Source: Pseudomonadota bacterium
GTDB taxonomy: Bacteria; Pseudomonadota; Alphaproteobacteria; Geminicoccales; Geminicoccaceae
Direction of reading: 5' to 3'
DNA length: 64,000 bases
Assembly (NCBI GenBank): GCA_030549795.1
Contig: JAUQQO010000018.1
Location: forward strand, 62,001 to 126,000
A program made the translations under genes and the position numbers. A model generated the notes under the pieces. That model was not told the DNA's origin and searched no databases. It worked only from the letters and a program-made list of their open reading frames with translations. Shown one piece after another: positions 8,144-34,968 of this stretch. Each line of letters begins with the position of its first letter. Position 1 is the stretch's first letter.

Positions 8144-8755
8144 ATGGGCGCGGTGGGCGAGTGCGAGCGCGGCGTCGCGATCGACGAGGTCGACGCCCTG
8201 CGCGCCGCCACCTATCGTCTGTTGGCACGTTTTTTGGCGTCACCTCCCGATGCTGCGGCGCTTGCGATCGCGGCGCGGTTGGGCGACGAGGAGAGCGAGT
8301 TCGGGCGGGCGCTCGCGCTGTTCGCCAAAGTGGTGCGGGCGACGACCCCCGAGCAGGCGGCCGAAGAGTATCACGAGCTTTTTATCGGGGTTGGGCGGGG
8401 CGAGCTTCTGCCCTACGCCTCCTTCTACCGGACGGGATTTCTTAACGAAAAGCCGCTAGCGGAACTGCGCGACGATCTCGCGCGGCTCGGGGTCGCGCGG
8501 GCTCCGGGCAATCCGGAGCCCGAAGACCATCTCGCGGCGTTGTGCGAGGTGATGGCCGGGCTCATCGAGGGGCGGTTCGGCGGCGGTGAGGTCGGCGAGC
8601 AGAAAGCGTTTTTCGAGCGCCATCTCGAGCCGTGGGCGGGGCGGTTCTTCGCCGACCTCGAGGTGGCGCGGGCGGCGCGGCTCTACCAGCCGCTCGGCAC
8701 CGTCGGGCGGTTGTTCGTGGACATCGAGCGGGCGGGGTTCGCGCTTTTGTCGTAA
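8144..8755 (+). CDS. TorD/DmsD-type molybdoenzyme chaperone
   Basis: This 203-residue all-helical protein fits the TorD family. Diagnostic stretches are ATYRLLARFLASPPD near the N terminus, EYHELFIGVGRGELLPYASFY with the family's conserved central pattern, and PEDHLAALCEVMAGLI. Family members bind the Tat signal or apo-form of molybdoenzymes in the cytoplasm until the cofactor is inserted. The adjacent client is FdhA, which has a Tat leader. I chose ATG 8144 because GGGAGGCGAGG precedes it; an in-frame GTG at 8099 would add 15 poorly conserved residues. Confidence 0.85.
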   Translation: MGAVGECERGVAIDEVDALRAATYRLLARFLASPPDAAALAIAARLGDEESEFGRALALFAKVVRATTPEQAAEEYHELFIGVGRGELLPYASFYRTGFLNEKPLAELRDDLARLGVARAPGNPEPEDHLAALCEVMAGLIEGRFGGGEVGEQKAFFERHLEPWAGRFFADLEVARAARLYQPLGTVGRLFVDIERAGFALLS

Positions 8756-8807
8756 GCGTCGCGTGTAGTGGCGCGAGCGGTTAAACGGAGTGAAAGGAAG
8801 GCGGACG

Positions 8808-9002
8808 ATGAGCGAGCAGAGGAAGGAAAAGGGGCACGGGCGGCGCGACGTCCTCAAGCTCGCGAGCCTCGGCAGCGTGGCGGCGGCCGCCGTGAGCGTG
8901 GTCGGTGCCGGTGAGGGGCGGGCCGCCGAGCGGCCTGGCCGCGGCAGCGGTTACCGCCTGACCGAGCATGTGAAGACCTATTACGAGACGGCCCGCTTCT
9001 GA
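8808..9002 (+). CDS. Small Tat-signal protein of the FDH operon
   Basis: This 64-residue protein has a twin-arginine leader (GRRDVLKLASLGSVAAAAVSVV at residues 11-32). A short mature tail ends YRLTEHVKTYYETARF. It matches the small formate dehydrogenase region TAT-target proteins found directly upstream of FdhA in many proteobacteria. The role is unknown; escorting or tethering FDH during Tat export has been suggested for such proteins only by context. ATG 8808 has AAGGAAGGCGG just upstream. FdhA follows after 37 bases. Confidence 0.82.
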   Translation: MSEQRKEKGHGRRDVLKLASLGSVAAAAVSVVGAGEGRAAERPGRGSGYRLTEHVKTYYETARF

Positions 9003-9039
9003 GCGCGGTCGCGAACCGGACCCGGGCGAGGAGGCAACC

Positions 9040-11937
9040 ATGCTGAAGAAGAGGAGCAACGGGTCGCCGGTGGCCAGCGCGTTCGGTGCGCTGCAGGCGG
9101 CTCTCGCGGGCGAGACTGTCGACCGGCGCGGCTTCTTGCGCCGCTCCGGTTTGGTGGCGGGCGGTCTTGCCGCCGCCTCGGGCTTGTCGGCGGGAATGGT
9201 GACCCGGGCGGAGGCGCAGGCGCAGGCAGCCAAGGCTCCGATCAAGCAGGTGAAATCGGTCTGCACCCACTGCTCGGTCGGATGCACGGTGATCGCCGAG
9301 GTGCAGAACGGCGTGTGGATCGGCCAGGAGCCGGCGTTCGATGGGCCCTTTAATCTCGGCGGTCACTGCGCCAAGGGTGCCTCGGTGCGGTGGCTCGCGC
9401 ATGGCGATCGCCGCCTGAAGTATCCGATGAAGCTGGTCGATGGGAAATGGACGCGCATTTCCTGGGACCAGGCGATCAACGAGATCGGCGACAAGCTGCT
9501 CGAGATTCGCGAGAAGTCGGGTCCGGACAGCGTCTATTGGCTCGGCTCGGCCAAGCACAGCAACGAGCAGGCCTATCTCTTCCGCAAGTTGGCTGCGTTT
9601 TGGGGGACCAACAACGTCGACCATCAGGCGCGGATTTGTCATTCCTCGACCGTCGCGGGCGTAGCCAATACCTGGGGCTACGGCGCGATGACCAATTCCT
9701 ACAACGACATCCAAAAGTCCAAGCTGATCTTCTTGATCGGCGGCAATCCGGCCGAAGCGCATCCGGTTTCGCTCGTCTTCCTGTTGCGGGCGAAGGAGCA
9801 GAACAACGCGCCGTTGATCGTCGCCGATCCGCGCTTCACCCGCACGGCGGCGCACGCGGACGAGTATATCCGCTTCCGTCCCGGCACCGATGTGGCGCTG
9901 ATCTGGGGCATCCTCTGGCACATCTTCGAGAACGGCTGGGAGGATAAGGAGTTCATCCGCAAACGGGTCTGGGGGATGGACCAGATCCGCGAGCATGTGA
10001 AGCAATGGACTCCGGAAGAGGTCGAGCGGGTGACCGGCGTGCCGGGCGCGCAGCTGCGGCGCGTCGCGATGCTCATGGCGAACAACCGCCCGGGCACGGT
10101 GATCTGGTGCATGGGCGGTACCCAGCACACGATCGGTAACAACAACGTTCGCGCCTACAGCATCCTGCAGTTGGCGCTCGGCAACATGGGCGTTTCGGGC
10201 GGCGGCACCAACATCTTCCGCGGCCACGACAACGTCCAGGGTGCCACCGATATGGGTGTGACGGTGGACAGCCTGCCCGCCTACTATGGTCTTGCGGAAG
10301 GGGCGTGGCGGCACTGGGCGCGGGTATGGGGTGTCGACTACAACTATCTTTTGAATCGCTTCGGTCCCAAAGACGCCGACGAGAAGACTCGCAAGGCGCT
10401 CATGGAGAAAGCGGGCATTCCGGTGTCCCGCTGGTTTGATGGCGTGCTCGAGGCGAAGGAGAACATCGACCAGCCGGACAATGTCCGGGCGATGATCTTC
10501 TGGGGCCATGCGCCGAACTCGCAGACCCGTTTGCCCGACATGAAGCGGGCGATGGAGAAGCTCGATCTGCTCGTGGTCATCGATCCCTATCCGACGGTGA
10601 GCGCGGTGCTGCACGACCGCCGGGATGGGGTGTACCTCTTGCCGGCCGCGACGCAGTTCGAGACCCGGGGCTCGGTGACGGCCTCCAACCGCTCGTTGCA
10701 GTGGCGCGAGAAGGTGTTCGGGCCCTTCTTCGAGGCCAAGCCCGACCACGAGATCATCTACCTGTTCGCGAAGAAGTTCGGCTTCGCGAACGAGATGTTC
10801 AAGAACATCAAGGTCGAGGGGAACGAGCCGGTCGTCGAGGACGTGCTGCGCGAGATCAATCGCGGTGCCTGGTCGATCGGCTACACCGGTCAGTCGCCCG
10901 AGCGGCTCAAGCTGCACATGCAGTACCAGCACACCTTCGATAAGGTGACGCTGCGGGCGGTCGGTGGTCCGTGCCACGGCGAATATTACGGTCTGCCGTG
11001 GCCGTGCTGGGGTACGCCCGAGATGAAGCATCCGGGCACCGCCAACCTCTATGATACCTCCTTGCCGGTGGCGGAGGGCGGCGGTTGCTTCCGGGCGGCG
11101 TTCGGCGTCGAGCGCGACGGCCAGTCGCTGTTGGCCGAGGGCAGTTGGCCCAAGGGCTCGGAGATCCAGGACGGCTACCCCGAGTTCACGATGGAAATGC
11201 TCATGAAGCTCGGGTGGGACAAGGATCTCACCGATGCCGAGCGGGCCGTCATCGAGCAGGTGGGCGGGCCCAAGGCGACTTGGCGCACCGACATCTCGGG
11301 CGGCATCATCCGTGTGGCGATCAAGCACGGCTGCGCGCCGTTCGGGAATGCCAAGGCGCGGGCGGTGGTGTGGAATTTCCCCGATCCCATCCCGTTGCAC
11401 CGTGAGCCCCTGTACGCGCCGGACCGCGAGCTGGTGGCGAAATATCCGACCTACTCGGATCGCAAGCTGCACCGCCTGCCGGTGCTCTACAAGTCGATCC
11501 AGGACAAGGACTTCTCGAAGGATTACCCGATCATTCTGACCTCGGGACGGCTCGTCGAGTACGAGGGCGGCGGCGACGAGACGCGGTCGAATCCGTGGCT
11601 CGCCGAGCTGCAGCAGCACATGTTCATCGAGATCAACCCGTTCGATGCGAACAGCCTCGGCGTGCGGGATGGCGCCTGGGTCTGGGTGGAAGGCCCCGAG
11701 AAGGGTCGGGTGAAGGTCAGGGCTATGGTCACCGAACGGGTCGGGCGCGGCGTGGCGTTCATGCCGTTCCACTTCGGCGGCTGGTTCCAGGGTAAGGACC
11801 TGCGGTCGAAGTACCCGAGCGGCAATGATCCGTACGTGCTCGGCGAGTCGACCAATACGGCGCAGACCTATGGCTACGACTCGGTGACCCAGATCCAGGA
11901 AACCAAGACCACGCTCTGCCGGATCTGGCCGGCCTGA
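9040..11937 (+). CDS. fdhA: Formate dehydrogenase catalytic alpha subunit (Mo/W-bisMGD), Cys form
   Basis: This 965-residue molybdoenzyme oxidises formate to CO2. It has a Tat leader (VDRRGFLRRSGLVAGGLAAAS, residues 28-48), a 4Fe-4S site at Cys75, Cys78, Cys82 and Cys110, and an active-site ARICHSSTVAG in which Cys200 (codon TGT) replaces the selenocysteine of E. coli FdnG, followed by His201. C-terminal bisMGD-binding segments include TSGRLVEYEGGGDETRS and FHFGGW. The Tat leader and the membrane cytochrome subunit point to a periplasm-facing, respiratory enzyme. It is followed by fdhB after 16 bases. FdhD and MobA, needed for maturation, are encoded at 24943-26550. Confidence 0.95.
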   Translation: MLKKRSNGSPVASAFGALQAALAGETVDRRGFLRRSGLVAGGLAAASGLSAGMVTRAEAQAQAAKAPIKQVKSVCTHCSVGCTVIAEVQNGVWIGQEPAFDGPFNLGGHCAKGASVRWLAHGDRRLKYPMKLVDGKWTRISWDQAINEIGDKLLEIREKSGPDSVYWLGSAKHSNEQAYLFRKLAAFWGTNNVDHQARICHSSTVAGVANTWGYGAMTNSYNDIQKSKLIFLIGGNPAEAHPVSLVFLLRAKEQNNAPLIVADPRFTRTAAHADEYIRFRPGTDVALIWGILWHIFENGWEDKEFIRKRVWGMDQIREHVKQWTPEEVERVTGVPGAQLRRVAMLMANNRPGTVIWCMGGTQHTIGNNNVRAYSILQLALGNMGVSGGGTNIFRGHDNVQGATDMGVTVDSLPAYYGLAEGAWRHWARVWGVDYNYLLNRFGPKDADEKTRKALMEKAGIPVSRWFDGVLEAKENIDQPDNVRAMIFWGHAPNSQTRLPDMKRAMEKLDLLVVIDPYPTVSAVLHDRRDGVYLLPAATQFETRGSVTASNRSLQWREKVFGPFFEAKPDHEIIYLFAKKFGFANEMFKNIKVEGNEPVVEDVLREINRGAWSIGYTGQSPERLKLHMQYQHTFDKVTLRAVGGPCHGEYYGLPWPCWGTPEMKHPGTANLYDTSLPVAEGGGCFRAAFGVERDGQSLLAEGSWPKGSEIQDGYPEFTMEMLMKLGWDKDLTDAERAVIEQVGGPKATWRTDISGGIIRVAIKHGCAPFGNAKARAVVWNFPDPIPLHREPLYAPDRELVAKYPTYSDRKLHRLPVLYKSIQDKDFSKDYPIILTSGRLVEYEGGGDETRSNPWLAELQQHMFIEINPFDANSLGVRDGAWVWVEGPEKGRVKVRAMVTERVGRGVAFMPFHFGGWFQGKDLRSKYPSGNDPYVLGESTNTAQTYGYDSVTQIQETKTTLCRIWPA

Positions 11938-11953
11938 GGCGGGAGGCTCGACC

Positions 11954-12550
11954 ATGGCGCGGATGAAGTTCCTCTGTGACAGCGAGCGCTGCATCGAGTG
12001 CAACGCCTGCGTCACCGCCTGTAAGAACGAGCATGAGATCCCCTGGGGCATCAACCGTCGGCGGGTGGTCACGCTCAACGACGGCAAGCCGGGGGAGCGG
12101 TCGATCTCGGTGGCCTGCATGCACTGCTCGGATGCGCCGTGCATGGCGGTCTGCCCGGTCGACTGCTTCTACCAGACCGAAGAGGGCGTGGTCCTGCACA
12201 GCAAGGACCTGTGCATCGGCTGCGGCTACTGCTTCTACGCCTGCCCCTTCGGCGCACCGCAGTTCCCGCAGGCGGGCAACTTCGGCTCGCGCGGCAAGAT
12301 GGACAAATGCACCTTCTGCGCCGGCGGGCCGGAGGAAGACCATTCGGACGCGGAATTCCGCAAGTACGGTCGCAACCGGCTCGCGGAGGGCAAACTGCCG
12401 ATCTGCGCCGAGATGTGCTCGACCAAGGCGCTTCTTGCCGGCGACGGGGATGTCATTTCCAACATCTACCGCGAGCGCGTCGTGCAGCGCGGCTTCGGCT
12501 CCGGTGCTTGGGGCTGGGGCACCGCTTATCAGCAGAAAGGCGGCGCGTAA
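11954..12550 (+). CDS. fdhB: Formate dehydrogenase iron-sulfur (beta) subunit
   Basis: This 198-residue electron-transfer subunit has four ferredoxin-like cysteine groups: CIECNACVTACKNEHEIPWG (about 13-32), CMHCSDAPCMAVCPVDC (about 56-72), CIGCGYCFYACPFG (about 86-99) and CTFCAGG (about 119) paired with CAEMCSTKAL (about 152). It would carry electrons from FdhA to the cytochrome b subunit. No C-terminal membrane anchor of the FdnH type is present. ATG 11954 follows GGCGGGAGG. Confidence 0.95.
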   Translation: MARMKFLCDSERCIECNACVTACKNEHEIPWGINRRRVVTLNDGKPGERSISVACMHCSDAPCMAVCPVDCFYQTEEGVVLHSKDLCIGCGYCFYACPFGAPQFPQAGNFGSRGKMDKCTFCAGGPEEDHSDAEFRKYGRNRLAEGKLPICAEMCSTKALLAGDGDVISNIYRERVVQRGFGSGAWGWGTAYQQKGGA

Positions 12551-24942: not shown

Positions 24943-25824
24943 ATGGCCTACCCGCTCTTGCTTCCCGATCCGACCAATCCCGCTTTGACCCAGCCGGTCG
25001 TTGGTCTCGATCACGAAGGACGGCGCGTGGAGGCGCGGATCGTGCACGAGCGGCCGCTTACCATCTTTCTCAACGGCCGCGAGATCGTCACGGTGATGAC
25101 GATCGGCGACCATCCCGAAGAGCTGGCGATCGGCTATCTCTTGAACCAGAACATGCTGCGGCCCGACGATGTCGTGACCGCGATCGAGCACGATCCCGAG
25201 CTCGAAGTTGTGGTGGTGCGCACCGCACGCGAGACAGATTTCGAACATAAGCTCCAGAAAAAAATCAAAACTTCGGGTTGTGCACAGGGCACGGTGTTCG
25301 GAGATCTCATGGAGCGTTTCGACGAGATCCGTCTTCCGCGCGATGCCGTGCTCAAGACTTCATGGCTCTACGCGCTCACGAAGAAGATCAACATGACACC
25401 CTCGCTTTACCTCGAGGCCGGGGCCATCCACGGCTGCGTCTTGTGCCAGCGCGATGAAATCCTCGTGTACATGGAAGACGTCGGGCGGCACAATGCGGTC
25501 GACAAGATTGCCGGTTTCATGTGGAAACACGGCATCAAACCGCACGACAAAATCTTCTATACGACGGGAAGACTCACCTCCGAAATGGTCATCAAGACGG
25601 TGCAGATGGAGATCCCGATCTTGATCTCGCGCTCGGGTTTTACGGCCTGGGGGGTCGAGCTCGCCCGCCGCGCCGGCTTAACGCTCATCGGTCGCGCGCG
25701 CGGCAGGCGCTTTCTCGCGCTTTCTGGCGAAGAGCGAATCGTCTTCGATGCCGACCCGCGGCGGATCGAGGAAGAGGATCCGCGCTTCCAGCGCAAGGGC
25801 GCGCGCGATGACGGCGAGGGCTAG
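24943..25824 (+). CDS. fdhD: Formate dehydrogenase accessory sulfurtransferase FdhD
   Basis: This 293-residue protein moves sulfur from a cysteine desulfurase to the molybdenum cofactor of FDH. Family elements visible are the N-terminal ERPLTIFLNGREIVTVMTIGDHPEELAIGYLL, the Cys pair in IHGCVLCQ, and VGRHNAVDKIAGF followed by TGRLTSEMVIK. It serves the FdhA encoded about 13 kb upstream. ATG 24943 has no obvious Shine-Dalgarno. MobA follows on the same strand after about 100 bases. Confidence 0.93.
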   Translation: MAYPLLLPDPTNPALTQPVVGLDHEGRRVEARIVHERPLTIFLNGREIVTVMTIGDHPEELAIGYLLNQNMLRPDDVVTAIEHDPELEVVVVRTARETDFEHKLQKKIKTSGCAQGTVFGDLMERFDEIRLPRDAVLKTSWLYALTKKINMTPSLYLEAGAIHGCVLCQRDEILVYMEDVGRHNAVDKIAGFMWKHGIKPHDKIFYTTGRLTSEMVIKTVQMEIPILISRSGFTAWGVELARRAGLTLIGRARGRRFLALSGEERIVFDADPRRIEEEDPRFQRKGARDDGEG

Positions 25825-25926
25825 GCGCGCGTACCGACGCGCGCGCGGCGGCACCGGTCGCGAGCAGCTTGGACACGCGCCGGCTCGGCTCAAAAGTTAC
25901 CCGATGTGCATCGGCTGTCCGCGCCC

Positions 25927-26550
25927 ATGAGCCCTCCGGTTCTCGGCGTGATCCTCGCGGGCGGCCTCGCCCGCCGCATGGGCGGCGGCGACAAGGCGCT
26001 CTTGCCGCTCGGGTCGGGTACGCTGCTCGATGCCGTGATCGCGCGCGCCCGCCCGCAGGTGCACGCTCTGGTCCTCAACGCCAACGGCGACCCGGCGCGC
26101 TTTGCTCGCTTCGGTCTCGAGGTGGTGGCCGACCCGATCGCGGGCTTCCCGGGGCCGCTTGCGGGCGTGCTCGCCGGGCTGGAGGCGGCAGCACAGCGCG
26201 ATCCGCCGCTGCCGTGGGTGGTCAGCCTGGCTGCCGACACGCCGTTCTTCCCTACTGATCTCGTCGAGCGGCTGTTCGCGGCGGTCGCGCGCGAGGGGGC
26301 CGAGCTCGCCTGCGCCGCCTCGGGGGGCCGGACGCACCCGGTCTTCGGTCTGTGGCCGGTTCGTCTCGCGAGCGCTCTCAAACACGCTCTTTTGGAAGAG
26401 GGCCTGCGCAAAATCGACCTCTGGACGGCGCGCTACCGCCTTGCGGTGGTGGATTGGCCGAGCGAGCCCTTCGATCCCTTCTTCAACGTCAACACGCCCG
26501 CCGAGCTCGCCGAAGCCGAACGGCTCGCGGCTCTCTACCCACGCAGCTGA
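25927..26550 (+). CDS. mobA: Molybdenum cofactor guanylyltransferase MobA
   Basis: This 207-residue nucleotidyltransferase joins GMP to molybdopterin to make the MGD cofactor used by FdhA. The N-terminal motif [23 protein letters not shown] (residues 6-28) contains the GTP-binding loop and Lys; AADTPFFP provides the metal-binding Asp. The C-terminal [17 protein letters not shown] is typical. I chose ATG 25927 ([13 protein letters not shown]) over an in-frame GTG at 25906. A candidate bidirectional terminator separates it from the convergent transketolase gene. Confidence 0.93.
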
Positions 26551-26588
26551 ACGGCGCAGAACGTTACCTTCTGTTCCACAGCGACGCG

Positions 26589-26619
26589 AACCGGCATCCC
26601 GCCGAGCGCGGCGCCGGTT
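26589..26619. terminator. Candidate bidirectional terminator hairpin
   Basis: AACCGGC (26589-26595) pairs with GCCGGTT (26613-26619), leaving a 17-base GC-rich loop. It sits in the 70-base gap between the convergent stops of mobA and the transketolase C-half. No T-tract follows, so intrinsic termination is unproven. Confidence 0.4.
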
Positions 26620-26620
26620 G

Positions 26621-27640
26621 TTAGGGCGTGACCTCGCGCATCAGTGCGCGCACCGCCGCGACGATCCCATCGGCGGTGAGGCCGTAGCGCGCCTGCAGCG
26701 TCGGCACCGTTCCGCATTCGATAAAGCGCATGGGAATGCCGACCCGCCGCAACGGACGATGGATTCCGGCCGCGAAGAGGGCCTCGACCACCTTGCTGCC
26801 GAGCCCACCCTCGATGAGGTGATTCTCGGCGGTGATCAGCACCTGAACGCGACGCGCGAAGTCCGTCACCGTTGCGGCGTCGAATGGGACGAGACAGGGG
26901 ACGTGCAGCACGCCCACAGAAAGCCCCTGACGCGCGAGCTCTTCGGCGGCATCGAGGGCGCGCTCGGTCATAAGGCCGGTTGCGATGATGCCGATCTCGC
27001 CCGGCTCGCGCAGGATCTGGGCGCGGCCAAAAGCGAAGCGGTAACCGTACCGGTCCAGGACGATCGGCACCTTGCCGCGCAGAATGCGCATGTACAGCGG
27101 CCGCGGCTCGGCTACGAAGGCCTCCACCACCTGTGCGATCTCGCAGGCATCGCAGGGATCGACGACGGTAAGACCGGGGATGGCGCTCATAAGTGCCAGA
27201 TCTTCGATGCCCTGATGGGTTGCGCCATAGCCCGTGGTGAGGCCCGGAAGCGCCGCGGCGATAGCAACGGGAAGCGCGCTCTTGGCGATCTGGATGGCGA
27301 TGAAGTCGTAAGCGCGGCGGGTGGCGAAGACGGCATAAGTGGTCGCAAAGGGCAGAAAGCCGGTTTTGGCGAGCCCCGCCGCGGCGCCGATGAGCGCCTG
27401 TTCGGCCATGCCGACGTTGAAGAAGCGATCGGGAAAGGCTTCGGCGAACGGTAAAAGGTCGGTGTACTTGGCGAGATCGGCTGTGAGCCCGACAAGCCGC
27501 GCCTCGCGCGCCGCTGCCGCGACCAGCGCCTTGCCGAAAGGCGCGCTCACGAACGGTCGGCCTTCGACCTCCTCGCTTTCGCCCATGCCCTTTGTGAAGG
27601 CCGGCTGTAGGTGTCCGGCGCGCGGTTGAACCTCGCTCAT
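26621..27640 (-). CDS. Transketolase C-terminal half (pyrimidine-binding and C domains)
   Basis: This 339-residue protein corresponds to the Pyr and C-terminal domains of transketolase. It has the ThDP-activating Glu in VGMAEQALIGAAAGLA, then FATTYAVFATRRAYDFI and GATHQGIEDLALMSAIPGLTVVDPCD, as in split transketolases. It needs the N-terminal half, encoded about 3.6 kb away at 31223-32107 on the same strand. The genes between them encode a TTQ amine dehydrogenase and its helpers. It starts 72 bases after the cytochrome c gene, so co-transcription is likely. Confidence 0.88.
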   Translation of the reverse strand: MSEVQPRAGHLQPAFTKGMGESEEVEGRPFVSAPFGKALVAAAAREARLVGLTADLAKYTDLLPFAEAFPDRFFNVGMAEQALIGAAAGLAKTGFLPFATTYAVFATRRAYDFIAIQIAKSALPVAIAAALPGLTTGYGATHQGIEDLALMSAIPGLTVVDPCDACEIAQVVEAFVAEPRPLYMRILRGKVPIVLDRYGYRFAFGRAQILREPGEIGIIATGLMTERALDAAEELARQGLSVGVLHVPCLVPFDAATVTDFARRVQVLITAENHLIEGGLGSKVVEALFAAGIHRPLRRVGIPMRFIECGTVPTLQARYGLTADGIVAAVRALMREVTP

Positions 27641-27712
27641 CGGCGCCTCCTGCGATCGGCTTCCCTTTTAGCAGGATCCGGGCGTTCCACCCAGGCGCCG
27701 AGCCGGCGCGCT

Positions 27713-28219
27713 TTAGCTGCGCGGTTCGGGGCTCTTGCCGATGCCGTCGTCGTCAGGTGCGAGCAGCCCGCGCGCCCGCAGCTCGGCGAGCATGCGCTCG
27801 CGCAGGCCCTTGCGGTCCTCGAGCGGGCGGCGGCGCGCAGCCGCCACCTCCTCGACCGTGAAGGGGGCGAAGTCCGGTGCCCGCTGCTCGCGGCCGTAGG
27901 TCTCGAGCACCCAATTCAGAACCGCCGTCAGCCGCGCGTCGTCGAGCACGCTGCGCGCCACCCCCGGCACCCTCATCAAGTAATCGCGTCCCTCCGGCAA
28001 ATGGGTAAAGAGACCGACGAAGCCGTCGAGGCGGGGGACGTGCCCGGGAGTCCCTTCGCCGGCGAGCCCGTGGCAGCCCTTGCACTTCAAGGCGTAATCG
28101 AGCCTTGCCCCGGTGTGGACCTCGACCGGTCGTCCGGGCGCGTAGTCCACCGCCCGCGCCGGACCGAGGCTCACGAGGAACAGGGCCAGGGTCGCGACGA
28201 GCGCGCGCACCGCGATCAC
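27713..28219 (-). CDS. c-type cytochrome of the amine dehydrogenase cluster
   Basis: This 168-residue protein has an N-terminal signal peptide (VRALVATLALFLVSLGPARA) and one heme motif CKGCH in YALKCKGCHGLAGEGTPG. The distal ligand could be the Met in YLMRVPGVARS. It starts at GTG 28219, overlapping the mauA stop (GTGA). It is a natural candidate for the electron acceptor of the amine dehydrogenase, in the place where mauC (amicyanin) occurs in classical mau clusters. The acceptor role is inferred from position. Confidence 0.82.
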   Translation of the reverse strand: MIAVRALVATLALFLVSLGPARAVDYAPGRPVEVHTGARLDYALKCKGCHGLAGEGTPGHVPRLDGFVGLFTHLPEGRDYLMRVPGVARSVLDDARLTAVLNWVLETYGREQRAPDFAPFTVEEVAAARRRPLEDRKGLRERMLAELRARGLLAPDDDGIGKSPEPRS

Positions 28220-28746
28220 GCCTTGCCGATCAGAACCTGGCTCGAGCAGTGGTAGACCATCGAGGGGGCGCCGAAGCACCACACGATGTCGTTGTTGAGC
28301 TCGGGCCGATAAGAAGGCATCTCGCCCTCGGTTCCGAGGCAGAAGCACATGCCGCAGCTGTCCTTGCCGCAGCAGTCCTGATAGGCGATGAGATACGCCT
28401 GCCCGTCGTCGGGATTGATACAGGTGCCGATCCAGCTCGTCGGCGAAGCGTAGGTGCCGGGTGGGCAGACGTTGACGGTACCGCCGCAGCAGGAGCACAA
28501 GTAACCATCAGAGGCGCAGTGGCGCCAATAGTTGCACTTCGTGGGATCGGTAGTCTGAGCGGTCTTGGCGAATTCGCTCGCGTGCGCGAGTTTGGCACGC
28601 GTCTTGTCGACGGGGAGAAGCGGCAGGACCGCGCCACCCACGAGCGCGGTCCCCAAGCGCGCCAGGATCCCGCGCCGCGAACTGCGCTGCGCGATGCGGC
28701 GGGCGGTGTGTTCCATCATGCGGTCGAAAGCGTCGAGGATGGTCAC
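28216..28746 (-). CDS. mauA: TTQ amine dehydrogenase light (beta) chain
   Basis: This 176-residue subunit carries the tryptophan tryptophylquinone cofactor. A Tat-like leader (SSRRGILARLGTALVGGAVLP, residues 22-42) precedes a cysteine-rich domain. The two cofactor tryptophans are Trp105 (SPTSWIGTC) and Trp156 (NDIVWCF). The acidic residues needed for TTQ formation and catalysis are Asp80 (CASDGYLC) and Asp124 (YQDCCG). There are 14 Cys after the leader, two more than in Paracoccus MauA: Cys87 (CSCCGG) and Cys131 (CCGKDSCG), a pattern I recall from aromatic amine dehydrogenase. The substrate (methylamine or a larger amine) is therefore open. GTG 28746 overlaps the mauD stop. Confidence 0.93.
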   Translation of the reverse strand: MTILDAFDRMMEHTARRIAQRSSRRGILARLGTALVGGAVLPLLPVDKTRAKLAHASEFAKTAQTTDPTKCNYWRHCASDGYLCSCCGGTVNVCPPGTYASPTSWIGTCINPDDGQAYLIAYQDCCGKDSCGMCFCLGTEGEMPSYRPELNNDIVWCFGAPSMVYHCSSQVLIGKA

Positions 28747-29396
28747 GGGTTCGTTCCTCCTTGAGCGGCAGGGGAAGTCGCAGCACCGTTGGGTCGCACG
28801 GCGCGTCGGGTCCCCGCGAGATAGTCCTGAATGGAGCTGAAGCCGGTCTCCTGCGCGACGAGCAGGCTCTCGAGATGCTCGCGCGAGTTCACGATCCCCT
28901 TCGCGCGCACCACACCCTCTGCATCGATCAGCACTGCGTAGGGCAATTTGCCGATCCCAAAGCGCATGCCGACGATGGGGGAAATAGCGAAGGGAAGATC
29001 TTCAACGCCATGTTCGCGCGCCATGGCACGATGCGCTTCGCGCTCGCCGTCACCCATGAGCACGAGCTCGACCGATTTGCGCTCGCTTCTCGCGAACGAC
29101 CGTACCGCACCCATGAGCTTTTTGCACATTGGGCAAATCGGCGAGACGAAGAGCAACAGCTGGCTTTTGCCATCCGCGCGCACGCCGCCCACGTGTAGCT
29201 TGCGCCCCTCGAGGTCGAGCAGGTCGAACTCGGGCGCCTTCTCGCCGATTTCCACGGCTGTGGGGGTGGCCATTGCGCCGAGCGGTGCTACCCGTTCGTG
29301 CAGCACCCCGACTTGTCGGGCGAGGGCGAGCACCGTCAGGCTCAAGACCGCAACCACGATCCACAAGAGAATATCGGAGACGACGAGCGGGTCCAA
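28743..29396 (-). CDS. mauD: Thioredoxin-like maturation protein MauD
   Basis: This 217-residue protein has an N-terminal membrane anchor (residues 7-26) and a thioredoxin-fold domain with a CPMC active site in LFVSPICPMCKKLMGAV. MauD is needed for correct disulfide formation in the light chain, which would have up to seven disulfides here. It starts six bases after mauE and its stop overlaps the mauA start (GTGA), so it is coupled to its client. Confidence 0.92.
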   Translation of the reverse strand: MDPLVVSDILLWIVVAVLSLTVLALARQVGVLHERVAPLGAMATPTAVEIGEKAPEFDLLDLEGRKLHVGGVRADGKSQLLLFVSPICPMCKKLMGAVRSFARSERKSVELVLMGDGEREAHRAMAREHGVEDLPFAISPIVGMRFGIGKLPYAVLIDAEGVVRAKGIVNSREHLESLLVAQETGFSSIQDYLAGTRRAVRPNGAATSPAAQGGTNP

Positions 29397-29401
29397 AGTC
29401 C

Positions 29402-29959
29402 CTACCTCCCGGACTTGAGGCGCCCGAGCGGAGCCAAGCCGGCAAGCCGGCTGAACGCCGCATAGAGTGCGAGAAGGGCTAATGAGCCGAAGACGATCGG
29501 AACGAGCTCCAAAAGGTGCGGAACATCGCTGGCCGGGCGCGTAACGAGAAGGGCCGCCAGAGCGGCGAGCAAAAGGTTACGGACCACGAGCGACCAGCTG
29601 ATCCGCTCCTTCTGTCGACCGATAAAACAACCGCAGTCGATTTCGGTGCGGCCGCGCAGGATGTTGATCGTCATGGCGAGCGCGAAGAGGAGGAGAAGGG
29701 CGAGCGCGAGCACCGCACCATAAGGGCGGGAGGGTGGGAGGAGCACCGCCACTCCGGCTGCGATCTCCCCCCAGGGAAGAGTGCGCGCAAAGGGCTCCGT
29801 CCAGCGCTCGGGCAGGATCCGATAGTCCGCAACGATGCCGATGACTTCGTCCATCGCGCGCAGTTTGCTCACCGCGCTCGGCAGGAAGATCCCTGCGAGG
29901 ACGAGCGCTCCCACCCAATGGAAAGCAGGTGCTTGCAGCGCGTCCACGCGTCCCCTCAC
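29402..29959 (-). CDS. mauE: Membrane maturation protein MauE
   Basis: This 185-residue integral membrane protein has four or five helices and a DoxX/MauE-like N terminus (FHWVGALVLAGIFLPSAVSKL). The conserved Cys-x-Cys sits in RTEIDCGCFIGRQK near residue 110 and probably passes oxidising equivalents to MauD. GTG 29959 overlaps the mauB stop as GTGA. The gene order B-E-D-A is that of known mau and aau clusters. Confidence 0.9.
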   Translation of the reverse strand: MRGRVDALQAPAFHWVGALVLAGIFLPSAVSKLRAMDEVIGIVADYRILPERWTEPFARTLPWGEIAAGVAVLLPPSRPYGAVLALALLLLFALAMTINILRGRTEIDCGCFIGRQKERISWSLVVRNLLLAALAALLVTRPASDVPHLLELVPIVFGSLALLALYAAFSRLAGLAPLGRLKSGR

Positions 29960-31149
29960 TCACCGAAGGTGTAAAGGAGCCAGGGCGAGATGCCGAGAGC
30001 GCTGCGCTCGGCCTTCTTCTGCCAGGTGGTGGTATCGTACGACATCAAGATCGCGGTCTCGGTGAGCGCGAACAGCAACGGTTTCTCGTCCTGGCTTACG
30101 GCGATGGTCGGGCTGTGATGGTCGAGCGGCAGACGATGGACGCGTTTTTTCGCGGCGACATCGAACACCCAAACCTCATCGCCAGCTTGCTTATGAGTCC
30201 ACTTGCCGCCCTTGTGCATGGTCACGAACAGGCGGTTGGAGGCGGCATGGAACGCGGCGAGCTGCCAGCCGCCGGGCCGCCATTCTTCATCCCCGGGGCC
30301 CTGCAGTTTCCAGCGCTCGCCCACTTTCGGCATGCCGTCGAGCGTTACCGGATAGACCCAGCCATCATAAGAGATGAAGAACGCCCGCTTGGACGGCCGG
30401 TGCACAGCGGCATGCTCGAAGACCGGATCGTTCTGCGAATCGAACCAGGGCTCGGAGAGCTCGGTCTTGGTGAGTTTGCCGGAAGCGTCGAAGGTCAGAT
30501 GCACGAAGCGTCCGTCGGGGCAGATCGACGCGACGCTGTTGGTGCCGGTTGCAAAGGCGAGCGAACAACCCTGCGTATCGAGCTCGCCCAGATATTTCAT
30601 CTCGTTCACATCGACCACGCTCAAGGAGAAGGCGGGGTCCATGTTGAACGAGAACAGATAGCGACCATCGTGGGAGAGCGTAGCATTGTGTTTTTTCGGC
30701 ACGACCAAGAAGCGGCCGTTGGGCAGGATCACCTCGCCTAACGGATCAAGGGTCTTGGTGTCCCATGCGGTGACGACGTCGGTGCGCGTGCCGCGCGAGC
30801 CCCGTGACCAATAAGTCTCGGCGATCCAAAACCGGCTCTTGTCGTGGCTGAGTACCGCATTGGGCAGATAGCCACCATTGACCATGCCCTTGATCGAGAG
30901 ATCGTCGCCGTCGAGGATCCACATTTTGGAGGCGACGAGGTAGGGGAACACGGGTTCGAGGACGTAGATCCAGCGCGGGCTGGGTTCGGGCAACACGGCA
31001 GTCGGATGGTCTTCTTGGGTCGGCAGCGCCGCCTGCGGCGGCATCTGAGCCGGGATCGGAGTCGCCGGTTGTGCCCACGCCTCAACGAGAGCCCCGCTCA
31101 ACCAAGCCCCGATCGACAACAGGGCGAAACGCATCGCGTACACTCGCAT
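29956..31149 (-). CDS. mauB: TTQ amine dehydrogenase heavy (alpha) chain
   Basis: This 397-residue periplasmic subunit has a signal peptide (MRVYAMRFALLSIGAWLSGALVEAWAQ) and a seven-bladed propeller of YVTN/MADH heavy-chain type. Recognisable stretches are YVLEPVFPYLVASKMWILDGDDL, MVNGGYLPNAVLSHDKSRFWIAETYWSRGSRG and the C-terminal RLFVTMHKGGKWTHKQAGDEVWVFD. I chose ATG 31149 because GAGGGGGGCC lies directly upstream; 31164 and 31131 are alternatives. It heads the B-E-D-A set and lies 73 bases downstream of the transketolase N-half. Confidence 0.93.
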   Translation of the reverse strand: MRVYAMRFALLSIGAWLSGALVEAWAQPATPIPAQMPPQAALPTQEDHPTAVLPEPSPRWIYVLEPVFPYLVASKMWILDGDDLSIKGMVNGGYLPNAVLSHDKSRFWIAETYWSRGSRGTRTDVVTAWDTKTLDPLGEVILPNGRFLVVPKKHNATLSHDGRYLFSFNMDPAFSLSVVDVNEMKYLGELDTQGCSLAFATGTNSVASICPDGRFVHLTFDASGKLTKTELSEPWFDSQNDPVFEHAAVHRPSKRAFFISYDGWVYPVTLDGMPKVGERWKLQGPGDEEWRPGGWQLAAFHAASNRLFVTMHKGGKWTHKQAGDEVWVFDVAAKKRVHRLPLDHHSPTIAVSQDEKPLLFALTETAILMSYDTTTWQKKAERSALGISPWLLYTFGE

Positions 31150-31222
31150 AGGCCCCCCTCGCATTGTCGGCCCGCGCCCTCACTATTAAGCATGACGCGT
31201 GCCAGTTGGTATTATCCGGCTG

Positions 31223-32107
31223 CTACGACCCGTCGAACGCCTCCGGATAGCTTGTTCCGCGCACGGACTGAGCGTAAGTTGCCTCGAGTTCGTCCAAAAT
31301 GACCGCCCACTCGTCCGGCTCGACGCGGATGAAATGCGCCTTCTCCCGGCGCTCGAGGCGCGGCACGCCCTTGCCCGGCAGAGTTCGACAGATGATCGCC
31401 TTGGGGCGGCCGTCGCGGGCGCGGGCGCGCGTAAGCGCCGAAACGATCGCCGCCATGTCGTTGCCGTCGATCTCTTGCGTGTCGAAGCCGAAGGCGCGCC
31501 ACTTCTCGGCCAAGGGTTCGAGGGTGACGACGATCGTCCCGTCCGCTTGGATCCCGTTAGCATCGACGATCGCCACCAGCTGATCGAGGCCGAAGGTGAC
31601 GGCGGCGAGTGCCGCCTCCCAGGTCGAGCCCTCCTGGCACTCGCCATCGGAGAGCTCGCAAAAGACGCGCGCCTCCGATCCGGCAAGGCGCAGACCCAAG
31701 GCCATGCCGATGGCAACCGGCAGGCCGTGGCCCAACGAGCCACCCGTCACTTCCACCCCGGGCGAGCTGTCGAGCGCGCTCATATCGAGCCGGCTGTCAT
31801 CGGTCGCAAAGGTCGACAGCTCCTCGCGCGCGAGCGCCCCCGCTTCGGCGAGCGTCGCCCACAAGAGCATCGCGTAATGGCCGGTGGAAAGGACGAAACG
31901 GTCGCGCTCCGGCCAATTGAGATCGCGCGGATCCCAGCGCAGCTCGTGGAAAAAGAGCGCCGCCATGACATCGGCGAAGCCGAGGGCTTGCCCGAGATAG
32001 CCCTGGCCCTTGCCGGTGGCGAGGAGGATGCAGCTGCGTCGGATCGCATGCGCAGACGCGCGCAACCGCTCGAGATCAGCGGATGGCGGCGGATGGTTGC
32101 GCAGCAT
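31223..32107 (-). CDS. Transketolase N-terminal half (ThDP pyrophosphate-binding domain)
   Basis: This 294-residue protein matches the N-terminal half of split transketolases. It has GKGQGYLGQALGFADVMAAL near the N terminus, DRFVLSTGHYAMLLWATLAEAG, the glycine-rich SLGHGLPVAIGMALGLRL, and the ThDP-metal motif SDGECQEGSTWEAALAA...VDANGIQ (GDG-N motif with Ser for the first Gly). It would pair with the C-half at 26621-27640. ATG 32107 was chosen because residues upstream of it do not look like the family. It lies upstream of mauB on the same strand. Confidence 0.85.
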   Translation of the reverse strand: MLRNHPPPSADLERLRASAHAIRRSCILLATGKGQGYLGQALGFADVMAALFFHELRWDPRDLNWPERDRFVLSTGHYAMLLWATLAEAGALAREELSTFATDDSRLDMSALDSSPGVEVTGGSLGHGLPVAIGMALGLRLAGSEARVFCELSDGECQEGSTWEAALAAVTFGLDQLVAIVDANGIQADGTIVVTLEPLAEKWRAFGFDTQEIDGNDMAAIVSALTRARARDGRPKAIICRTLPGKGVPRLERREKAHFIRVEPDEWAVILDELEATYAQSVRGTSYPEAFDGS

Positions 32108-32251
32108 CGCTCGACCACCTCCCAAGCACCGAGGCTGCGCCAGCGCGCGCGAGCGGTCAACGGCTCTTGGCGGATGGCTGCGCAACCCAACGCGAACCGG
32201 CTGCTTTTTGAGCCACCTGCTCGCATCCGCGCATCGACCGCGCTTCACGCG

Positions 32252-33088
32252 TCAGCGGTCCAGCCATTGCATGCGGATCTTCTCGCCAATCAGACAATCG
32301 ATCCGCTTTTCCGGCGCACGGGCTGCCGCCGGGATCACCTCCGCGGTGCGGCCTGCCACTTCGAGCCACAGCTTCTGGCGGATGGCGGGGACGAACTGTT
32401 CTTTCTCCCGCACTGGAATGACGAAAGAACCGGGCCCGCCCGTCACGCAGTCTTCGTAGTAGATGTCGAGATCGGGGATGCTGCCGAAGCCGGGATGGGG
32501 GTCTTTGAGCATGATCGGCAGGCCGTTGATCACGATGCCGCGCGCGAGCACGGCATCGCGCACCGGCTCGATCATCGGCCCGGCGTTGTTGGGTCCATCG
32601 CCGGAGACGTCGATCACCCGCCGAAGGCCTTGGTAGGGACTCTTATCGAAGAGGTCCGCTGCGAACAAAAGCGCCGCTGAGATCGACGTCCAGCGTTCGC
32701 GGCTGAGCGGAGCTTCGGCGAGTTCGGCTGCGAAGGCCTGCGCGCTTTGCGGCCCATCGATGAGCCGCCAGGGCACCACCACCTGCTGCCAGGAGGGTCC
32801 CGACCATTCGACGTAGGTGACCGCGATGCGCCCAAAACCACCGGCGCGGATCGCGTGGATCACTTCCGGTGCGGTGATCGCTTCGAGATAGCCCCGGCGC
32901 TGCAGTTCCTGCTCGTCGAGATCCATCGAGCGCGACACATCGACGGCGAGCACGAGCTCGAGGTCGACCGGTATGGCCTGCGCCCGAGCCGTCCCGCAGC
33001 CGCCTATGAGGACCGCGATCGCGACCAACCACCCGACTACCGCCGCGCTCGGCATGGCGCGTCGTTCCAAAAAGACCTTCTTGCCCAC
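32252..33088 (-). CDS. DUF1194 VWA-like lipoprotein
   Basis: This protein of about 278 residues has a von Willebrand A-like fold. The start VDLELVLAVDVSRSMDLDEQELQR holds the MIDAS-type DxSxS pattern, and RVIDVSGDGPNNAGP carries the later Asp. The signal segment ends LIGGC, a lipobox, so it is probably a lipoprotein. I chose GTG 33088 because the later ATG (33055) would leave the signal peptide without basic residues. The role is unknown. It is divergent from the formate-THF ligase gene. Confidence 0.75.
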   Translation of the reverse strand: MGKKVFLERRAMPSAAVVGWLVAIAVLIGGCGTARAQAIPVDLELVLAVDVSRSMDLDEQELQRRGYLEAITAPEVIHAIRAGGFGRIAVTYVEWSGPSWQQVVVPWRLIDGPQSAQAFAAELAEAPLSRERWTSISAALLFAADLFDKSPYQGLRRVIDVSGDGPNNAGPMIEPVRDAVLARGIVINGLPIMLKDPHPGFGSIPDLDIYYEDCVTGGPGSFVIPVREKEQFVPAIRQKLWLEVAGRTAEVIPAAARAPEKRIDCLIGEKIRMQWLDR

Positions 33089-33246
33089 ACTGCGATGGCG
33101 CGCTCGTGCCGTCAACGGCGGCGGCATCGGCCCGGCCCGATCTTGAGGCGCAACGCGCTCGCGCTGCCCACACATGACACCACCGCGCGACGTCCTTAGC
33201 CTGCAGCAGGCGTGCACGGCTGCCCGTCGCTTCGGAGATCGCGCTT

Positions 33247-34968
33247 ATGGCGCTCGGCTTTTCGTTCGAGGGGCCCATCCCCCAGGCATCGCCGCGGCCG
33301 ATCGCGGAGGTCGCTGAGGAGCTCGGCGTTCCCGCTTCTGCGCTCCTTCCTTACGGTCGCGATGTCGCCAAGGTCGACCTCGCGTGGTTGCGCGAACAGG
33401 GAGCACAGCTGCGCGGGCGACTCGTGCTCGTGACCGCGATCACGCCCACGCCCGCTGGCGAGGGCAAGACGACGACCGCGATCGGGCTCACGGATGCGCT
33501 GCGCCGGCTCGGTCGGCGCGCTGTGGTCTGTTTGCGCGAGCCTTCCTTGGGTCCCACGCTCGGCGCCAAGGGGGGTGCCACCGGTGCCGGGCGGGCGCGC
33601 CTGGTGCCGAGCGCGCGCATCGATCTGCACTTCACCGGCGACTTCAACGCCATCGCGAGCGCTCACAACCTGCTCGCAGCGTTGATCGACAACCATCTGC
33701 ACTGGGGCAACGAGCTCGCCCTCGATCCCCGCCAGGTGAGCTGGCGGCGGGTGATCGACCTCGATGATCGCGCCTTGCGGTCGATCATCGTCGGTCTCGG
33801 CGGGACGGCGAACGGCGTGCCGCGCGAAACCGGCTTCGACATCACCGCCGCTTCCGAGGTCATGGCGATCTTTTGCCTGGCGCGAGATCTCGCCGATCTC
33901 GAAGCCCGGCTCGAGCGGATCGTGATCGGCGCGGATCGCCACGGCAGGCCCGTACGCGCTGCGGCGCTCGGCGCACCGGCGCCTATGACCGCGCTTTTAG
34001 CGGAGGCCTTCGCCCCCAACCTCGTCCAGACGCTCGAGGGTTCGCCGGCGTTCGTCCACGGCGGGCCGTTCGCCAACATCGCCCACGGCTGCAACAGCGC
34101 GATCGCCACCCGCAGCGCGCTCGCGCTCGCCGAGATCGTGGTCACCGAGGCTGGTTTTGGGGCCGATCTTGGAGCCGAGAAATTCGTGAACATCAAGGCG
34201 CGGGAAAGCGGCCTCTTTCCCGATCTCGCGGTGCTCGTGGTGAGCGTGCGGGCTTTACGCTACCACGGCGGCGCGACGCGCGACGCTCTCGAGCGGCCAG
34301 ATCCCGAGGCGGTGGCGCGCGGGCTCGCCAATCTCGAACGCCACCTCGCCATCCTTTCCCGCTTGCGCGTGCCGACGGTGGTGGCGATCAACCGATTCCC
34401 CCATGACAGCGACGCCGAACATGCGCTCGTGCGGGAACGCTGCGCGCGCCTGAGCGTGCCGAGCGCCCTTTGTACGCACCATGACGAGGGCGGAGCTGGG
34501 GCGCTCGAGCTCGCTGAACGAGTGCTCGCCGCGCTGTTCGGCGATCGTGCCGATGCGGCCGGCGGGGCGGATGGGTCGTCCGCGTGCGAGGACCGAACGC
34601 GTCTTCTCTATCCCGACGACATGCCCTTGCGCGAGAAGATCGCCTTGGTCGCCCGTGAGATCTACGGAGCCGCCGATGTCTTGTTCGAGAAAGCCGCTGC
34701 GCAGTCCTTGGATCGCTTCGAAGCCTGGGGTTTCGGTCGGCTTTCGGTGTGTATGGCCAAAACCCCTTTGAGCCTTTCGGCTGATGCGAGCCTGCGCGGA
34801 GCGCCACGGGATTTCACCTTTCCCGTCCGCGCGGTTCGTCTTGCCGCCGGGGCGGGCTTCGTCGTGGTCCTCGCGGGCGAAGTGACCACCATGCCGGGTC
34901 TGCCGCGGCGACCGGCGGCACTCGATCTGCGCCTCGATGCGCGCGGGCAAATCCAGGGATTGCGCTGA
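33247..34968 (+). CDS. fhs: Formate-tetrahydrofolate ligase
   Basis: This 573-residue enzyme makes 10-formyl-THF from formate, THF and ATP. The P-loop TPTPAGEGKTTTAIGL is at about residues 69-84, followed by REPSLGPTLGAKGGATGAG, FTGDFNAIASAHNLLAALIDNH, DITAASEVMAIFCLA, and EAGFGADLGAEKFVNIKAR. The length is slightly above the usual 555-560. Formate could come from the amine dehydrogenase/aldehyde route or the medium, and FDH competes for it. It is monocistronic here. Confidence 0.95.
   Translation: MALGFSFEGPIPQASPRPIAEVAEELGVPASALLPYGRDVAKVDLAWLREQGAQLRGRLVLVTAITPTPAGEGKTTTAIGLTDALRRLGRRAVVCLREPSLGPTLGAKGGATGAGRARLVPSARIDLHFTGDFNAIASAHNLLAALIDNHLHWGNELALDPRQVSWRRVIDLDDRALRSIIVGLGGTANGVPRETGFDITAASEVMAIFCLARDLADLEARLERIVIGADRHGRPVRAAALGAPAPMTALLAEAFAPNLVQTLEGSPAFVHGGPFANIAHGCNSAIATRSALALAEIVVTEAGFGADLGAEKFVNIKARESGLFPDLAVLVVSVRALRYHGGATRDALERPDPEAVARGLANLERHLAILSRLRVPTVVAINRFPHDSDAEHALVRERCARLSVPSALCTHHDEGGAGALELAERVLAALFGDRADAAGGADGSSACEDRTRLLYPDDMPLREKIALVAREIYGAADVLFEKAAAQSLDRFEAWGFGRLSVCMAKTPLSLSADASLRGAPRDFTFPVRAVRLAAGAGFVVVLAGEVTTMPGLPRRPAALDLRLDARGQIQGLR

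Follow-up and report, generated by a model that had tools for sequence, protein, structure and literature searches.

Gene Content and Order at the Locus

The DNA analyzed here, which we refer to as the window, is a stretch of 64,000 nucleotides from contig JAUQQO010000018.1 of a Geminicoccaceae genome (GCA_030549795.1), and the element under study is a cluster of 7 genes on its minus strand at positions 26621-32107. In the 5' to 3' direction, the cluster contained a gene for the first half of a split transketolase-like ketolase (TKN), the genes mauB, mauE, mauD, and mauA of a tryptophan tryptophylquinone (TTQ) amine dehydrogenase, a cytochrome c gene, and a gene for the second half of the ketolase (TKC). 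The intergenic gaps were, in the same order, 58, -4, 5, -4, -4, and 72 bases. The original prediction, made from the letters of the window, had described this order on one strand with the 2 transketolase halves at opposite ends, gaps of 74 bases or less, and several GTGA overlaps. All genes were found where it had placed them, with a maximal gap of 72 bases and 3 overlaps of 4 bases.

The TKN gene (31223..32107) starts with the ATG codon at position 32107 and encodes a protein of 294 amino acids, the thiamine diphosphate (ThDP)-binding half of the ketolase (Pfam Transketolase_N, 3.5e-41, in a scan that used a longer frame of 341 amino acids). It is followed by the gene for the mauB-like heavy subunit of 402 amino acids (29956..31164; Pfam Me-amine-dh_H, 7.9e-55), the gene for a mauE-like membrane protein that starts with GTG at position 29959 or 29947 (29402..29959; Pfam MauE, 4.6e-31), the gene for a mauD-like thiol-disulfide protein (28743..29396; NCBIfam MauD, 204 bits, above the cut-off of 188.6), and the gene for the mauA-like light subunit, in which the TTQ tryptophans are intact (28216..28746; NCBIfam TTQ_MADH_Lt, 219.6 bits, above the cut-off of 196.85). 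The monoheme cytochrome c gene (27713..28219, start GTG 28219 or 28210) was recognized by a weak match to Pfam Cytochrom_C (1.2e-4) and a CKGCHG motif, and many related mau loci also contained a cytochrome-related gene 3' of mauA. The last gene, TKC (26621..27640), encodes 339 amino acids that comprise the pyrimidine-binding and C-terminal half of the ketolase (Pfam Transket_pyr, 4.6e-32; Transketolase_C, 2.4e-25).

As judged by eye, the N-termini of the mauB, mauA, and cytochrome c products were of the export type, and the mauA product contained an RSSRRG motif that resembles a twin-arginine translocation (Tat) signal, whereas the N-termini of TKN and TKC were not of this type. The 7 genes may be transcribed together. 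No sigma-70-like promoter was found at positions 26500-33400, and the 6 terminator-like sites in this region were not in excess of the 4.7 +/- 2.3 sites in shuffled sequences, both scans being weak evidence in GC-rich DNA.

Sugar and Phosphate Contacts Are Replaced in the Ketolase

In an alignment to the E. coli transketolase TktA, residues His26, His100, Ser385, Phe434, His461, and Asp469 were replaced by Tyr, Ser, Tyr, Tyr, Leu, and Tyr in the window halves, with the position of Asp469 adjoining a one-residue alignment gap. Positions 26, 100, 385, 461, 469, and 520 are established sugar and phosphate contacts, and among these only Arg520 was retained. The ThDP-site and catalytic residues H66, G114, D155, N185, H261, E411, and H473 were all present. 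Arg358 was replaced in one alignment and located in a gap in another, where this was so even for the solved split enzyme, and it was therefore not relied on. The 2 chains are complementary, with the split placed between the ThDP and pyrimidine domains. Their best NCBIfam match was the transketolase model, with scores of 218.6 and 238 bits that fell below the curated cut-off of 488 bits. A full-length transketolase with all classical residues is encoded on another contig of the genome (C9). The altered active site suggests a ketolase that handles non-phosphorylated aldehydes or ketones.

Positions 26, 100, 385, 461, and 469 have also been changed in laboratory-evolved E. coli transketolases. 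The residues were identical in the laboratory variants and the window halves for H26Y, S385Y, and D469Y, whereas positions 100 and 461 were replaced otherwise. The laboratory variants carry these changes separately, while the window halves are natural, encoded by 2 genes, and combine all 5 of them; conversely, R520 has been changed in several laboratory variants and is retained in the window halves. In published work, the changes S385Y/D469T/R520Q turned the acceptor preference of the E. coli enzyme away from phosphorylated aldehydes and toward non-phosphorylated and aromatic ones (PMC5073344), and D469Y had 8 times the specific activity of the wild type on propanal and gave the R product, as did H26Y (PMC3657141). 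H100L combined with D469T in a stabilized enzyme made pyruvate usable as a donor (PMC10787763), and R358I/H461S/R520Q increased the activity on 5-keto-gluconate by 55%, in an engineered scheme with 5-keto-gluconate as the donor and formaldehyde as the acceptor (PMC12016104).

Conservation of the Gene Order within the Genus

A scan of genome contigs for the mauA product yielded 47 loci, of which 5 contained matches to both TKN and TKC, all with the gene order of the window; these loci were examined with flanks of 10 kb, and since some contigs end inside the flanks the absence of the halves is not certain for each of the others. The 5 loci (L014 to L018) came from 4 genomes labelled Geminicoccaceae and 1 labelled "uncultured Alphaproteobacteria", all of which belong to the genus of the window. 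In a survey of 31 genomes from the family, this TKN was identified in 6 of 6 genomes from the genus, with scores above 620 bits, and in none of the 25 others, where the best score was about 337 bits. The 5 other genus genomes in the survey (G020 to G024) are those of L014 to L018 and were counted once. The seven-gene order was thus present in all 6 genus genomes, so that the search for the same order envisaged in the original prediction matched 5 of 5 other genomes of the genus, and the order is not unique to the window genome. All 28 survey matches were turned into loci, and no mau match was found near the TKN loci of the non-genus members within flanks of up to 1.5 kb.

The matched frames of the 7 genes were free of stop codons in all 6 genomes. 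Mean pN/pS values over the 15 genome pairs were 0.20 for TKN and 0.22 for TKC, within a range of 0.13 to 0.42 for the 7 genes (simple proportions, uncorrected for saturation), values that suggest purifying selection on all 7 genes. An exception to the tight spacing was L014, in which a gene on the opposite strand (11060-11917, minus) is located between the cytochrome and TKC genes, leaving a gap of 1081. This gene encodes a xylose-isomerase-like TIM-barrel protein and was matched in only 1 of the 6 genus genomes. Genes in the GC-rich DNA of the relatives were called from codon usage, and the opposite-strand gene in L014 was found by reading the DNA and its frames.

Phylogenies inferred from 49 rows placed the 6 genus copies in a single clade in both the TKN tree (support 100/99) and the TKC tree (100/100). 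The trees omitted tktA, L083, L084, L089, L161, and L077, and were rooted with the genome's own full-length transketolase as the outgroup.

The Ketolase Subfamily outside the Genus

To describe the relatives of the split ketolase, we consider 45 loci (L071 to L100 and L154 to L170, except L155, which is the genome's own, and L161, which represents the same place as L076), 27 of which had the Tyr26/Ser100 pattern; L077, whose sequence is cut off at position 26, was included on the basis of Ser100. The genes for TKN and TKC were adjacent in all 27 loci, with match ends no more than 53 bases apart, and each locus contained a match of more than 80 residues to a short-chain dehydrogenase/reductase (SDR), although not always in the next gene. 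Tyr385 was found in 26, Tyr469 in 25, and Leu461 in 22 of the 27, and the full set of window residues at positions 385, 434, 461, and 469 in 22. No mau match was found in the Tyr26/Ser100 loci outside the genus, in flanks of 1.5 to 7 kb, some of which were cut by contig ends.

In a survey of 385 genomes from the class, in which up to 6 candidates were scored per genome, 18 matches to the model were obtained at an E value of 1e-75 or better. Of these, 13 were of the Tyr/Ser type (G010 by its locus L076), 3 of them from genus members. Alphaproteobacteria contained members of the subfamily, as did single plasmid records from Variovorax, Pantoea, and Cnuibacter. Two of the nearest rows outside the genus, G086 and G260, had the order SDR-TKN-TKC with no mau match, and were surrounded by genes for transporters of the DctPQM tripartite ATP-independent periplasmic (TRAP) type and for proteins of the enolase superfamily. 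The latter were most similar to galactonate and gluconate dehydratases, below the curated cut-offs (in one case 300 versus 311 bits). From these dehydratase-like and TRAP neighbors, our guess is that the cassette serves in sugar-acid catabolism. Other members had a glycerol-dehydrogenase-like gene nearby, which in Variovorax also resembled the gene for glycolaldehyde reductase (scores of 284 and 235 bits, neither of which reached the cut-off). In the Salipiger locus, a gene annotated as dihydroxyacetone kinase (L100, 5098-6840) was located directly before the ketolase halves, adjoining a TIM-barrel gene.

Absence and Decay of the SDR and TRAP Genes

In the window, the gene directly upstream of TKN encodes a DUF1194 protein (32252..33088, minus strand; Pfam DUF1194, 6.5e-78), which is a neighbor only. 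In L015 to L018, TRAP and SDR genes are located between the DUF1194 gene and TKN. These genes were intact beside TKN in L015, L016, and L017 and broken in L018, whereas the window and L014 had no SDR or TRAP gene at the locus. An SDR ortholog of at least 82% identity was present in 4 of the genus genomes, and none was found in genome-wide searches of the window genome and the L014 genome (G022), in which the best-scoring match was 38% identical.

In L018 (1726-6622), the SDR gene was missing a stretch and had a frame change, the DctP gene had a stop codon and a frame change, and the DctM and radical-SAM genes had 1 and 2 stop codons, respectively. TKN, mauB, mauE, mauD, mauA, the cytochrome gene, and TKC were all without breaks in this locus. 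An assembly error is possible, but among the genes compared, breaks occurred only in the SDR/TRAP/radical-SAM block and in one DUF29 gene. The L018 block gives the appearance of an ongoing decay of the transport and oxidation half of the cassette. At least 2 separate losses of the SDR and TRAP genes are likely, although the genes could instead have been gained by the genomes that carry them.

The Amine Dehydrogenase and a Second mau Cluster

Both TTQ tryptophans (W57 and W108) and the active-site Asp (D32, D76) were found in the mauA product of the window, as in each of the 79 aligned rows, which included the reference and some duplicate loci. The window light chain also had Y119, with Ser at position 122, Val at position 107, and 14 cysteines, and the heavy chain had Tyr beside a one-residue insertion at the position of F55 in methylamine dehydrogenase (MADH). 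F55 and I107 are the positions that govern amine size. Position 107 is a poor marker by itself, since L015 and L018 have Ile, and the methylotroph loci L033, L034, L040, and others have Val.

A second mauBEDA cluster was identified on contig C46 of the same genome (L061, 7143-12119), followed by genes for MauJ-like (20.7 bits, cut-off 28) and MauG-like (269 bits, cut-off 444) proteins; no mauG was seen at the window locus. Like the MADH of Paracoccus, the C46 products had F55, I107, T122, and 12 cysteines. The light chain of the window passed the MADH model with 219.6 bits, against 304.5 bits for the C46 copy, while the heavy chain reached 196 bits on TTQ_MADH_Hv against a cut-off of 454 bits, which is not decisive by itself as the C46 copy was also below it with 393 bits. 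Because the C46 cluster has the methylamine signature and the window enzyme differs from it at the substrate-site positions checked, the latter is probably not the methylamine dehydrogenase of the genome. The single-contig genome G023 (L016, L116, L143) contained only one mauA, namely the one at this locus. Its single CCP_MauG-family protein scored 189 bits on the MauG model, for which even the C46 protein remained below the cut-off.

Small neighboring genes in related mau loci encoded a glyoxalase-like protein (L021, L026, L028, L029, and L030) or an RHH_4 protein (L020, L021, L026, L027, and L029), as determined by a Pfam check of one member from each cluster; these neighbors may be a hint to the substrate of this group of dehydrogenases. 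Purely hypothetical candidates for the reaction are the conversion of ethanolamine to glycolaldehyde, that of aminoacetone to methylglyoxal, for which the glyoxalase-like neighbors are to be noted, and the oxidation of aralkylamines.

Genes of formate metabolism were found close to the locus, at positions 8144-12550 and 24943-34968 of the window. The FDH3 subunit beta scored above the cut-off, and Fdh-alpha-like and TorD-like proteins from the same region scored below it. Nearest to the cluster, fdhD (24943-25824), mobA (25906-26550), and a formate-tetrahydrofolate ligase gene, fhs (33247-34968), were recognized by eye.

Probable Origin and Possible Function of the Nested Operon

Since the halves are otherwise encoded by adjacent genes in the subfamily, the direction of the event would by parsimony be an insertion of mau genes between ketolase genes. 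The mauBEDA and cytochrome c operon was most likely inserted once, in the ancestor of this Geminicoccaceae genus and before the 6 genomes diverged. The ketolase itself would stem from a cassette of SDR, split-ketolase, and transporter genes, which in 2 of the nearest relatives also includes the sugar-acid-dehydratase-like genes.

The reading that we favor is that the ketolase and the oxidation of amines are functionally linked, to which we assign a probability of roughly 0.42. In the periplasm, the dehydrogenase would convert a primary amine, for which methylamine is an improbable candidate, into an aldehyde and ammonium by oxidation, and its electrons would pass to the cytochrome. TKN and TKC would assemble in the cytoplasm, as in the solved alpha2beta2 enzyme of Carboxydothermus hydrogenoformans, and transfer a ketol unit of two carbons from one non-phosphorylated substrate to another, with the amine-derived aldehyde or its product as the likeliest acceptor. 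The link is favored by the finding that the 7 genes are intact where the SDR and TRAP genes are missing or broken. A more specific proposal, by which the ketolase was recruited from a sugar-acid pathway and builds ketoses from the TTQ-made aldehydes, with a keto-sugar acid, hydroxypyruvate, or a free ketose as the donor, seems unlikely in this particular form. The conserved bracket and the intact halves thus keep the functional link of the original prediction plausible, but not the pathway that it outlined, and its general idea of an amine-derived aldehyde as the ketol acceptor may still hold.

Several observations weigh against such a link. Judged from the N-termini, the dehydrogenase and the ketolase are probably located in different compartments, and most related mau operons are found without the ketolase halves, both of which occur in only 5 of the 47 loci, all from the genus. 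The active-site changes are also present in the mau-free relatives and therefore predate the association with the mau genes, which makes them a matter of compatibility rather than proof; moreover, R520 is changed in 2 of the 3 multiple laboratory variants but kept in the natural halves. In L014, a gene on the opposite strand lies between the cytochrome gene and TKC, so that strict co-transcription is not conserved. The TKN and TKC trees conflict inside the genus: the window groups with L014 in the TKN tree only and branches apart from the other 5 in the TKC tree, while L018 and L015 are together in both. The number of SDR and TRAP losses is uncertain for this reason, and the genome-wide test of loss covered the SDR gene, with the absence of TRAP genes being seen at the level of the locus. 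A literature search, which had most subscription papers outside its coverage, found no substrate for the subfamily.

A nearly equally probable alternative is that the TTQ operon was inserted between the ketolase genes as a bystander, under one promoter or with its own, and shares no pathway with the ketolase. The latter would then still serve in sugar or sugar-acid catabolism with another dehydrogenase and transporter of the cell, for which the 27 SDR matches in the window genome could provide substitutes. One shared event accounts for all 6 genomes, the halves are used without mau genes in 27 of 27 relatives, and the mau operon is used without the halves. The isomerase-like TIM-barrel gene in L014 and the TIM-barrel genes near 2 other members likewise point to a sugar context that has been kept. 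What this view explains less well is that intact halves still bracket the mau genes in the 2 genus genomes that lack the SDR and TRAP genes, and in the third in which these are broken.

The pathway of the original prediction, in which methylamine is oxidized to formaldehyde and the halves act as a dihydroxyacetone synthase that joins it with xylulose-5-phosphate, is improbable, and we rejected it as the main explanation of the locus on the active-site residues and the MADH signature positions. It agrees with the formate-metabolism genes in the window (FDH3 subunit beta, with fhs and fdhD by eye), the methylamine dehydrogenase-like cluster elsewhere in the genome, the dihydroxyacetone kinase gene beside the Salipiger pair, and the engineered scheme with 5-keto-gluconate and formaldehyde (PMC12016104). 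However, the use of a sugar phosphate is not supported, as the phosphate and hydroxyl contacts His26, His100, Ser385, His461, and Asp469 of E. coli TktA are replaced, and formaldehyde from methylamine is better assigned to the C46 cluster, which combines a MauG-like gene with the signature F55, I107, T122, and 12 cysteines that the window enzyme lacks. In addition, G023 keeps the locus although it has no second mauA, and Fae, an alternative formaldehyde sink, is encoded in 3 of the 6 genus genomes, including that of the window. It is highly improbable that the halves are simply a split form of the ordinary transketolase from the pentose phosphate pathway, located here by chance. This view was rejected because at least 5 classical residues are replaced and a full-length classical copy is encoded on C9, even though the transketolase model, below its cut-off, is the top NCBIfam match for each half.

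If the ketolase uses an amine-derived aldehyde, the locus would represent a bacterial carboligation route from amines, which is not among the pathways known to us. It would also be an unrecorded route from amine oxidation to the formation of carbon-carbon bonds, in which one operon is nested inside the split genes of another enzyme. With the same limit of coverage, the literature search gave no evident report of the arrangement, the subfamily, or a combination of TTQ enzymes and transketolases, and the novelty is therefore provisional. With or without the link, the subfamily is a natural group of transketolases that combines substitutions made by engineers in separate variants for non-phosphorylated aldehydes. 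This group is a ready test of whether the positions have the same meaning in natural enzymes, and its sequences could be of use as biocatalysts.

Comparison with Known Systems

The locus resembles the operons for methylamine dehydrogenase in the mauBEDA order and the intact TTQ residues, and differs from them in having no mauG, Tyr and an insertion at F55, Ser122, and 14 cysteines. The aau operon of Alcaligenes faecalis has the order aauBEDA followed by a gene for a small heme protein, with no mauG in the cluster, and is not known to contain ketolase genes; the literature search did not turn up this order. The window subunits also matched chains of aromatic amine dehydrogenase (AADH) in a search of the PDB, with scores below those for MADH (166 bits for MADH versus 139 for AADH with the heavy chain, and 151 versus 144 bits with the mature light chain).

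The sets of SDR, split-transketolase, and TRAP genes on plasmids of Rhizobium, Sulfitobacter, Paracoccus, and Salipiger have the residue pattern of the window and an SDR in the locus. TKN and TKC are adjacent in these sets, and the stretches shown do not contain TTQ genes, whereas the window halves are separated by the mau genes. The split-gene transketolase of C. hydrogenoformans (6yak/6yaj) likewise consists of 2 chains with the same domain division, and provided the best PDB sequence matches of both TKN (6yak N-chain, 1.3e-61) and TKC (6yaj, 4.4e-64). This enzyme is reported to be an active alpha2beta2 complex that accepts glycolaldehyde and phenylacetaldehyde (PMC7661550). It has His26, His100, Ser385, His461, and Asp469, whereas all 5 of these residues have been replaced in the window halves.

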